Source: a virus
Length of the DNA: 39,920 bases
Reading direction: 5' to 3' (one strand)
Virus record (IMG/VR): IMGVR_UViG_3300044959_000080
Coordinates: 1 to 39,920 of that record
The translations under genes were made by a program, and so were the position numbers. The notes under the pieces were generated by a model, which was not told the origin of the DNA, did not search any database, and worked only from the letters and a program-made list of their open reading frames with translations. Shown piece by piece: positions 26,168 through 29,040 of the stretch (positions are counted from its first letter, which is position 1; every line of letters starts with the position of its first letter).

Positions 26168-26197
26168 ATGATACCCCATCTACATCATCAAAATCAA
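26168..26197 (-). promoter_or_regulatory. Sigma70-like promoter P4 (leftward, outermost)
   Basis: On the minus strand TTGATT and TATCAT are separated by 18 bases ending GTAGATGGGG. This is the weakest match of the four related elements, but it keeps the TGGGG just before the -10 box. It would drive the 118-aa gene with little or no 5' leader. Confidence 0.65.
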
Positions 26198-26286
26198 GGG
26201 GTCATGTCTTTCCCCCCTAAGAACCCCCCTATATTAATATATACACATCCCCATATTATTATATATTATTTTATATTATTCTATGG

Positions 26287-26319
26287 AATATATTATAAAA
26301 TATAATATTATAATATATT
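26287..26319. repeat. AT-only inverted repeat
   Basis: AATATATTATAA and TTATAATATATT are perfect 12-base arms around a 9-base A/T loop, inside a tract with almost no G or C (about 26225-26345). Such DNA melts readily and would suit an unwinding element. Confidence 0.75.
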
Positions 26320-26348
26320 AGTTTATTATATAGTATAGTTTTTAGGTT

Positions 26349-26374
26349 AAGCGAATCGCGTTAGCGATTCGCTT
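26349..26374. repeat. Perfect hairpin, 11-base arms
   Basis: AAGCGAATCGC and GCGATTCGCTT pair perfectly around a GTTA loop. The right arm runs into TTTCG, so a weak rightward terminator is possible, but an origin or operator structure fits the surroundings better. The GCGAATCG core is echoed in the repeats that follow. Confidence 0.75.
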
Positions 26375-26401
26375 TCGTAAATCGAAATCGAATCGGTAAT
26401 C

Positions 26402-26462
26402 GAATCGTATTCGAAATGGGTTTCGGTTAACGGAATCGTATTCGTAATAGGGTTTAGGTTAA
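26402..26462 (+). repeat. Two tandem repeats of about 30 bases
   Basis: Unit 1 (26402-26430) and unit 2 (26433-26462) share GAATCGTATTCG, then AAT, GGGTTT and GGTTAA, differing at few positions. A partial unit (TTTAGGTTAAGCGAATCG) lies at 26341-26358 and extra AATCGAATCG cores at about 26387-26408. They look like iterons or multi-operator sites. Confidence 0.7.
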
Positions 26463-26481
26463 GTATTAGTATACTCATAAA

Positions 26482-26503
26482 GGGTTCGTCTTAAGACGAA
26501 CCC
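26482..26503. repeat. 22-bp perfect palindrome
   Basis: GGGTTCGTC-TTAA-GACGAACCC is fully self-complementary. A half site (AACGAACCCTA) recurs at about 26545-26555. A dimeric regulator or initiator site is the simplest reading; a T-rich tail for a terminator is absent on both sides. Confidence 0.75.
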
Positions 26504-26555
26504 ATTAAGAGTTAATATATATATTACGGGGGCTGAAAAAAAAAAACGAACCCTA

Positions 26556-26638
26556 CCCCCACCGTATCGTACATCATACCCCCACCGTAAACCCAAACCA
26601 TGCCCCCCCCACCGTAAAAGCCTATGACCCCCGCCGAT
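26556..26638 (+). repeat. Four C-rich repeats, CCCCCACCGTA type
   Basis: Copies begin at 26556, 26579, 26606 and a variant (CCCCCGCCGAT) at 26628, spaced 22-27 bases. On the opposite strand they read TACGGTGGGGG, which resembles the CGGTGGGG part of the promoter spacers. At 26579 it is even followed by TATGAT, but without a -35 box. Confidence 0.7.
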
Positions 26639-26657
26639 TTTTGAAGCGTTTCAATAG

Positions 26658-26677
26658 ACTCGTTTGGTCAAACGAGT
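26658..26677. repeat. 20-bp palindrome upstream of first rightward gene
   Basis: ACTCGTTTG and CAAACGAGT pair perfectly around GT, 44 bases before the ATG at 26721. Its size and location fit an operator for the first rightward gene; no good -10/-35 pair was found around it. Confidence 0.65.
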
Positions 26678-26720
26678 TAAGTGGAACCTTTTTGCAAAAA
26701 CGGTTGTCTAAAGAGGTGTT

Positions 26721-27773
26721 ATGGCAACCCCCGTATGGATGGCAGTTCATCGCCACGATGTGGCGGACAACCAGTGTGCGTTTTGGTCGTCGTTTGGTTC
26801 ACTGTTGCATGGCGGCTTCCGAATCGCCACCCGTATCCTCACCGCATGTCCAACCGCCCAAACAAAGGTTTGGACTTACACTTTTCCCGCTGCGCTTTAT
26901 GATTTGCAAAACCAACCCCGTACTTGGGTCGACTACGGCAACCCGTTTGAAGACTACGCACTCAACGACCTCCCCCGTTTGAATTCCACAACAGGACAAC
27001 CCATCATCGATTACCCGTCTACGGGTCGAAGGTACTGGGTCGATATGCTTCAAATCGACCCTGCAGAGGTTGCGAAACAACTCATACCGAAACTGAACCA
27101 ACTACTCCACCGCCGTATCGCCGACGACTCGGTGTTGTTGCAACTGCTCCGCGATTTCGGCACATCCTCGTCTCCGTCCGATTTAGACCGCAACGGTGTG
27201 GTGGATGACGCTGATTTGCTGCGGTTGCTGATGTGTTTCGGTCAGCCGTTTATTACTCAGCCACCGAATTTCGATGGGTTGTTTGAGGGCTACTTCATCG
27301 ATAACGCCCCTGAGTATCATCGATACTGGACGCAGTATGCAGGACGAACACCACAACAGGCGTTGGAAGGCTATGAGCGGTTTGTGCAGTTGCTCAAAAT
27401 CGTCAGCCCCACCGCGAAAATCTGTGCGAATGTGTACGAAGGAGCCGTTTTGGATACATGGAACGGCTTCTTGGATGTGGTCGATGTGGTCTTCTTTGAG
27501 AATTGGCGATGGCACTGGGCGACAGGAACCCCGTTATCGGACTCCGCCATTCAGACCATCGAACGCCGAATACGGAGATGTCTTTCGGCAGGGAAATCGG
27601 TGGTGTTGGGTGTCCCTCATGCGTTGGATTCAGCGGACGGCAACCAGAAAAAAGAGGCAGTGCGTACCGCGTTGCAGCGGTGGGGCGATGGAGTCGTCTT
27701 TGCTGAGTACCGAAAATCCTTTTACAGAGGCAGAGAAGTTGGCTACCCCCGTCCCGTTCGGGAACTTTTCTGA
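26721..27773 (+). CDS. TIM-barrel glycoside-hydrolase-like protein with embedded dockerin motif
   Basis: The 350-aa protein has segments typical of uncharacterised (alpha/beta)8 glycosidase-like families. RYWVDMLQIDPAEVAKQLIP is followed by GLFEGYFIDNAPE (acid candidate Asp194), then AKICANVYE, a DVVFFENWRW segment (candidate Glu260), KSVVLGVPHALDS and a terminal VFAEYR. Inserted at about residues 130-175 is a dockerin-like pair: a degenerate ADDSVLLQLLRDFG half and a good EF-hand half, DLDRNGVVDDADLLRLLMCF (Asp154, Asp156, Asn158, Asp165). Possible roles are a capsule/S-layer-degrading or host-surface enzyme. GAGG four bases before the ATG supports the start, and the frame has a stop just upstream. 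There is no signal peptide. It may be a captured host gene. Confidence 0.6.
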   Translation: MATPVWMAVHRHDVADNQCAFWSSFGSLLHGGFRIATRILTACPTAQTKVWTYTFPAALYDLQNQPRTWVDYGNPFEDYALNDLPRLNSTTGQPIIDYPSTGRRYWVDMLQIDPAEVAKQLIPKLNQLLHRRIADDSVLLQLLRDFGTSSSPSDLDRNGVVDDADLLRLLMCFGQPFITQPPNFDGLFEGYFIDNAPEYHRYWTQYAGRTPQQALEGYERFVQLLKIVSPTAKICANVYEGAVLDTWNGFLDVVDVVFFENWRWHWATGTPLSDSAIQTIERRIRRCLSAGKSVVLGVPHALDSADGNQKKEAVRTALQRWGDGVVFAEYRKSFYRGREVGYPRPVRELF

Positions 27774-28146: not shown

Positions 28147-28176
28147 TTGACATTTGTGTCATCGATGGGGTATACT
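28147..28176 (+). promoter_or_regulatory. Sigma70-like promoter P1 (rightward, replication genes)
   Basis: A consensus TTGACA and TATACT are separated by 18 bases ending CATCGATGGGG. It follows a run of ten G at 28137-28146 and lies 43 bases before the annealing-protein ATG. It is the best match of the four related elements and probably drives the replication and tail genes. Confidence 0.85.
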
Positions 28177-28218: not shown

Positions 28219-29040
28219 ATGGCTAAAACGAAGGTAGTGGAAGAGCAGGTGGTGCAGACGAACGGTCTGCTGAAGCGGATGATGGAGCAACTAACGGCTC
28301 CCATCGAGGGTACGCAGATGACCATCGGTCAGTCGCGGACAGGTGAACCCATCACCCGACCGTATGTGCCTTTGAAGAATGTGCTGCGTCGGCTGTGGAC
28401 GGTGCTTGAGTCGCCGTTTGACGCTTCGATTGAGACCATCATGAACTGGGACTATGACGACTTCCGCCAAATCGTGGTGGTGGCTTCGATTACCCTGCAG
28501 ACCGAACAGGGCGAAATCATCGTGGACGGTGTGGGGTCGACCGTTGTTCGACGCGACGCAAACCAACAACTCCACGAGAACGCCGTTTCGGCTGCGTACT
28601 CCAAAGCCATCAAGAACGCAGCGAAGTTCTTGGGTATCGGACTCGACATCGAAACCGATGAGGAAGTCCCTGAGGTGGTTCGCCCCCGACCGTCTAATGA
28701 TGAGGTGTACGCCCAGTTAGCCCAAAACGAAAACGCGGACGAGGTGCTTCGTGTGGCGAAGTGGTTCGTGGAGCGGGTTTGGGGTATCGAACCCGAAGGC
28801 GACGGTCTACAGGATGTTTTTGAGTCGATGATACAGCAACTCGGTAAAACCTCTGACGGTAAGGCGATTTCGCCCAAGCAACTCTTCCACTGGTTCCGTC
28901 GTCGTGGCTACGAGAACTACCTCAGCGAACAGGACGACCTACTGACCGACCCACCAACGGCGGACGACATCAAACGAGACCTTGACCGTTTGTTTGACAA
29001 ACGGGAACAAAACGGGAACCAACCCCGTAATAGAAGGTAG
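28219..29040 (+). CDS. Rad52-like single-strand annealing protein
   Basis: The 273-aa protein carries the Rad52/Rad22-type core. Beta strands WDYDDFRQIVVVASITLQTE and EIIVDGVGST (about 77-107) lead to a conserved helix HENAVSAAYSKAIKNAAKFL and GIGLDI (119-143), the DNA-binding turn of this family. The C-terminal part is acidic and flexible, ending in a polar tail. Such proteins pair complementary strands in phage recombination and replication restart. It is transcribed from promoter P1 with AAGGAGG nine bases before the ATG, at the head of the replication cassette, and would act with the Cas4-like nuclease encoded downstream. Confidence 0.72.
   Translation: MAKTKVVEEQVVQTNGLLKRMMEQLTAPIEGTQMTIGQSRTGEPITRPYVPLKNVLRRLWTVLESPFDASIETIMNWDYDDFRQIVVVASITLQTEQGEIIVDGVGSTVVRRDANQQLHENAVSAAYSKAIKNAAKFLGIGLDIETDEEVPEVVRPRPSNDEVYAQLAQNENADEVLRVAKWFVERVWGIEPEGDGLQDVFESMIQQLGKTSDGKAISPKQLFHWFRRRGYENYLSEQDDLLTDPPTADDIKRDLDRLFDKREQNGNQPRNRR

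Follow-up and report, generated by a model that had tools for sequence, protein, structure and literature searches.

Dockerins are known as modules at protein ends that attach enzymes to cellulosomes via cohesins. What is a dockerin-like segment doing in the middle of a phage protein? The window, by which we mean the whole 39,920-base stretch of viral DNA analyzed here (record IMGVR_UViG_3300044959_000080), raises this question at 26721..27773 on the plus strand, where an open reading frame (ORF) encodes a protein of 350 aa. An earlier note, made from the sequence alone, had read this protein as a glycosidase-like phage protein with a dockerin-type EF-hand inside its fold, which may be either a calcium-stabilized insert or an anchor to host cohesin-like proteins.

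The gene and its place in the window

The window carries genes for a portal, a major capsid-like protein, a terminase, an amidase, a primase-helicase, and a family-B-like DNA polymerase, together with long structural genes. The capsid and terminase names were assigned by reading the sequence. The ORF at 26721..27773 opens a plus-strand run that also contains replication genes. A purine-rich AGAGGTG, read from the sequence directly 5' of the ATG (26712..26718, plus strand), resembles a ribosome-binding site. The ORF is preceded by a divergent, AT-rich intergenic stretch of 540 bases (26181 to 26720) with long imperfect inverted repeats and CGAATCG-type repeats, which is a candidate origin or control region. 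Upstream of the gene at 28219 there is a near-consensus sigma-70-like sequence, TTGACA-18-TATACT (28147 to 28176), that matches at 11 of 12 positions.

Searches of the 350-aa protein against Pfam, NCBIfam, PHROGs, PDB sequences, and INPHARED phages gave nothing useful. The ORF is nevertheless a genuine gene, and we found two full-length relatives. One (L002) is on the viral contig IMGVR_UViG_3300014796_000057, and the other (L003) is in the genome of the Fimbriimonadales bacterium KatS3mg018 (Armatimonadota). We call the latter locus a prophage because genes for a portal, a minor tail protein, and a CHAP protein lie nearby. In that prophage, a same-strand run (L003 1562 to 6125) encodes a CHAP endolysin-like protein, a 178-aa protein, a family-less 718-aa protein, and then the glycosidase-like protein. 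Pairwise identity within the three-member family is 36 to 52%; in the alignment, the window protein is 38% identical to L002 and 40% to L003, and these two are 52% identical to each other. Viral contigs searched by alignment and with two DNA motifs, 113 genomes of the order, and 291 genomes of the phylum yielded no further full-length relative. This family, which is without current annotation, adds to the glycosidase-like barrels of phages.

When all frames were compared, the glycosidase-like protein was the sole protein common to the window and the L003 prophage at an E value of 1e-4. The window and the L002 contig had in common, besides this protein, only a capsid-like protein (25% identical). 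Since the three phages have almost no other proteins in common, the gene looks like a mobile accessory gene. We also considered acquisition of a whole host enzyme and rejected it: a profile of the C-terminal barrel matched nothing in the order or phylum except the L003 prophage and one 16-residue fragment at a contig edge (E value of 0.008), and the order lacks GH114.

A two-half dockerin within the protein

We built a dockerin profile from 19 Fimbriimonadales dockerins, leaving the phage proteins out. It matched the window protein with 46.9 bits, without gaps, over residues 133 to 174, covering both halves of the module, and it matched L002 and L003 with 52.9 and 38.8 bits. The top score among 2,000 shuffles of the window protein was 7.9 bits, and the profile search reported none of the window's other frames. 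Single host modules are 48 to 60% identical to the window module over 42 residues. These sequence comparisons show that residues 133 to 174 form a dockerin with two halves, of the type found in Fimbriimonadales.

The two tandem F-hand halves are each about 22 residues long. Alignments to the relatives and to Fimbriimonadales dockerins place the first half, IADDSVLLQLLRDFG, at residues 133 to 147 (27117..27161, plus strand). It is degenerate: the helix and the F/Y-G pair are retained, and the calcium loop is gone in all three proteins. The second half begins with an intact EF-hand calcium loop, DLDRNGVVDDAD, at residues 154 to 165 (27180..27215, plus strand; D154-x-D156-x-N158-G-x-x-D162-x-x-D165). 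Every position of a dockerin F-hand loop is present here (D1, D/N3, D/N5, G6, D9, and D12), and the loop D-x-[DN]-x-[DN]-G-x-x-D-x-x-D is intact in all three proteins. It is followed by the exit helix and FG pair, LLRLLMCFG, at residues 166 to 174 (27216..27242, plus strand), which are covered by the profile match and by a modeled helix at residues 163 to 171. Across all six frames of the window there is a single EF motif. Calcium ligands 1, 3, 5, 9, and 12 are thus present in the second half only, and this half probably binds calcium. The Phe of the LFxFG motif, conserved in the host dockerins, is gone from both halves in two of the three phage copies.

The module spans 42 to 46 residues and lies at the identical place in all three proteins. 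It is internal, not C-terminal, with 176 residues downstream of it in the window protein. Neither Pfam nor NCBIfam calls a dockerin in the window protein, which falls below the curated cut-offs of PF00404 and NF041540; L003 matches PF00404 with an E value of 0.088, also under the cut-off. Because these standard searches are silent, the dockerin call rests on the lineage-specific profile.

Could the EF-like loop instead be an ordinary calcium loop of the barrel family, or a chance match? Such loops do exist. Some GHL15 barrels have a D-x-N-x-D-G loop elsewhere in the fold; in the GHL15 barrel protein L067 of the phylum, it is DTNRDGKPDD and follows beta4, unlike the position of the phage insert. 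A single DDADLF loop is also found in one family of large phage proteins. However, these GHL15 and phage loops come without a second half or an FG pair, and host dockerins match both halves of our module gaplessly. The close homologs do not have an ordinary loop at this place; both carry the module. The shuffle control and this conservation rule out chance or an ordinary loop, a reading to which we give almost no credence.

The earlier note had called dockerin-like repeats unusual in phages, and searches of viral contigs and INPHARED bear this out, as does a DNA motif scan of 2.9 million viral contigs (DDADL[LF] and [IV][IV]DDADLL). The scan returned 52 stretches. Where the motif was in an open frame, it was nearly always the single loop of one large, unrelated phage protein; none of the 52 showed another dockerin pair. 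This large protein, of about 1170 aa, is found on some 48 viral contigs (L072 to L123) and has a single conserved EF loop, D[DAN]DEDG[VI]VDDADLF, near residue 830.

The predicted barrel and the insertion site

We made two AlphaFold2 models. The first used the three sequences (pLDDT of 46.6); the second had six host dockerin rows added (pLDDT of 65.9, with about 50 in the insert itself, and pTM of 0.70). GH191 was the top match to solved structures for both models, with E values of 2.7e-6 and 8.5e-6 and, for models of low-to-moderate pLDDT, TM-scores of 0.37 to 0.51 by query length. GH168 endo-fucanases came next, with GH66, PgaB, and PelA lower. These matches agree with the earlier assignment of a glycosidase-like protein. 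We do not claim GH191 membership, because sequence profiles give no link to GH114 or GHL15: HMMER and hhalign profile comparisons found none with the GH114 and GHL15 proteins of the phylum, and similarity to GH191/PF03537 did not appear as a Pfam hit, a PDB sequence hit, or a profile match.

Two invariant acidic residues are candidates for catalysis. Asp194 of FIDN (27300..27302, plus strand), at the end of beta4, is the candidate nucleophile, and Glu260 of FFENW (27498..27500, plus strand), at the end of beta6, is the candidate acid/base. They were placed by motif and by their spacing of 66 residues, not by residue-level superposition. The Asp/Glu pairs of GH191, GH114, and GH166, putative or verified, are 58 to 69 residues apart, and that of GH135 Sph3 is 26 apart (PMC12054363). 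The FENWRWHW and YEG motifs are also invariant in the three proteins. These features would fit a glycosidase activity of the barrel.

The earlier note had put a good and a degenerate dockerin half in mid-protein, between the first barrel strands and the FIDNAPE strand. The profile match, the alignment, and the model all support this placement: the EF-hand comes after an early helix and before the FIDN strand. In the second model (insert pLDDT of about 50), helices at residues 114 to 129, 136 to 146, and 163 to 171 are followed by a strand at residues 190 to 193. The first of these, in the region of residues 114 to 132 (27060..27116, plus strand), is modeled at the position of barrel helix alpha3, and FIDNAPE (residues 192 to 198) comes after the module. 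In the solved TM1410 and Env-GH191 structures, the helix before beta4 leads directly into the FxGxxLD strand. Therefore, about 55 residues appear to be inserted before beta4 in the phage protein. In a TIM barrel, the connections from helix to strand lie across the barrel from the active site. Since the insert is sited at such a connection, it is likely to lie on that far side as well.

Dockerins of the presumed hosts

In the five dockerin-bearing Fimbriimonadales genomes first searched, we found 45 to 117 module matches each. Across the order, 25 of 113 genomes match the module at an E value of 1e-6, and about 20 have more than 10 modules. In the ORFs that we read closely, the host modules end 2 to 8 residues before the stop, with few exceptions, and the proteins often end in Gly-Cys. 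By a crude test, 15 of 24 host dockerin ORFs have a signal-like N terminus, and some of the proteins have domains of secreted or surface proteins. A simple heuristic found no signal peptide in the phage proteins. In the proteins scanned, the host modules are themselves under the PF00404 and NF041540 cut-offs. We found no paper on GC-type dockerins. Modules of the phage type thus serve as C-terminal tags in the presumed hosts, a point absent from the earlier note.

Prophage and terminase searches found no host for the window phage. The module and the prophage relative point to Fimbriimonadales as its presumed host. Only inside the module does the DNA of the window resemble that of Fimbriimonadales genomes (27175..27241, plus strand; 78 to 89% identity over 35 to 64 bases, in 8 genomes). 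We do not claim a recent DNA transfer from the host, because this identity is no higher than the level expected from protein similarity.

With the Pfam model, cohesin was found in none of the 113 genomes of the order, although about 20 are rich in dockerins, and in none of the five dockerin-rich genomes searched alone; the control, Methanosarcina acetivorans, was positive. The suggested anchoring to host cohesins finds no support here. An intact calcium loop in a dockerin-type sequence is what classical cohesin-dockerin anchoring would call for, but with no cohesin found in these genomes we consider that reading very improbable.

What the module may do

We propose that the protein is a mobile phage glycosidase in which a domesticated host-type dockerin serves as a calcium clamp, possibly with docking to the partner of the host tag as well. 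We put the chance that this is right at about even. In this scenario, the body of the protein, a TIM barrel like those of GH191, GH114, and GH166, would use Asp194 and Glu260 to cleave a polysaccharide in the envelope or matrix of the host. The two-half dockerin would be seated between beta4 and the helix before it, and, loaded with calcium, would most likely stabilize the far side of the enzyme as a clamp, in a domesticated state. The module may retain some docking to the partner of host dockerin tags. It could hardly contact the substrate from its likely position on the far side of the barrel. We favor a structural role over strict docking because the phage copies have lost the first calcium loop and several host-conserved Phe residues. 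A calcium-stabilized insert, as the earlier note suggested, is possible. The pLDDT values of the two models, the lack of a profile match to the GH114 and GHL15 proteins of the phylum, a family of only three members, and a host that is presumed count against the proposal.

A close second in our ranking, ahead of cohesin anchoring, which we disfavor, is that the module docks to the partner that holds host dockerin-tagged proteins at the cell surface, which would keep the enzyme on the envelope or sheath near its substrate. We regard this as plausible, though doubtful. The module type is present in tens to more than 100 copies per Fimbriimonadales genome, close to the stop (at most 8 residues away in nearly all of the sample read), and the host modules are related to the GC-type dockerin domain-anchored proteins of NCBIfam NF041540. 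The likely position of the module away from the active site and the movement of the gene between otherwise dissimilar phages are also consistent with docking. On the other hand, no cohesin was found in the 113 genomes, the losses from the phage copies weigh here as well, and an internal copy cannot provide the C-terminal, often Gly-Cys-ended, form of the host tag. It is also rather unlikely that the barrel is non-catalytic and belongs to the virion structure, for example in the tail or in receptor binding. The viral fold matches did include a TIM barrel protein of a phage non-contractile tail sheath (E value of 1.2e-4), and the lack of a detected signal peptide fits such a role. However, glycosidases are the best matches in the PDB, all three proteins keep the acidic pair as well as the FENWRWHW and YEG motifs unchanged, and the prophage copy comes after a CHAP endolysin-like gene in the same-strand run.

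Compared with the calcium clamp, a broader idea is more speculative, and we think it somewhat unlikely: Fimbriimonadales phages may exploit a cohesin-independent dockerin display of the host, with an internal copy of the tag targeting the glycosidase to the host surface via a receptor common to dozens of host proteins. What we observe is one lineage with tens to more than 100 dockerins per genome and no recognizable cohesin, and unrelated phages in which an enzyme-like protein has this module built in. It seems from this that phages have co-opted part of a system by which hosts tag their proteins. The phage protein could be a bait for finding what these dockerins bind.

Comparison with known systems

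Like the GC-type dockerin NF041540 and the C-terminal dockerins of Fimbriimonadales, the phage module has two DDxxLL...L..(F/Y)G halves and one matching calcium loop. Unlike them, it is internal, has lost the first calcium loop, is without the terminal Gly-Cys, and is in a phage protein; the NF041540 model itself does not hit it. It resembles the type I dockerin PF00404 in its two halves and in its F-hand calcium loop and helix, but it scores below the curated cut-off, lacks one loop, and is internal, and no cohesin was found in the presumed host order. The modeled barrel is similar to GH191 (TM1410-like) and to the alpha-galactosaminidase-type barrels of GH114 and GH166 in its top fold match and in the candidate beta4 Asp and beta6 Glu, but it is without sequence-profile similarity to them and has the insert of about 55 residues before beta4. 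The phage lysin LysGH15 has an EF-hand-like calcium site within its CHAP domain (PMC4022735), and in both cases a phage hydrolase, putative here, contains such a site. In LysGH15, however, the site belongs to the CHAP domain and is beside the active site, whereas here a dockerin appears to be inserted into a TIM barrel, on the side remote from the active site.
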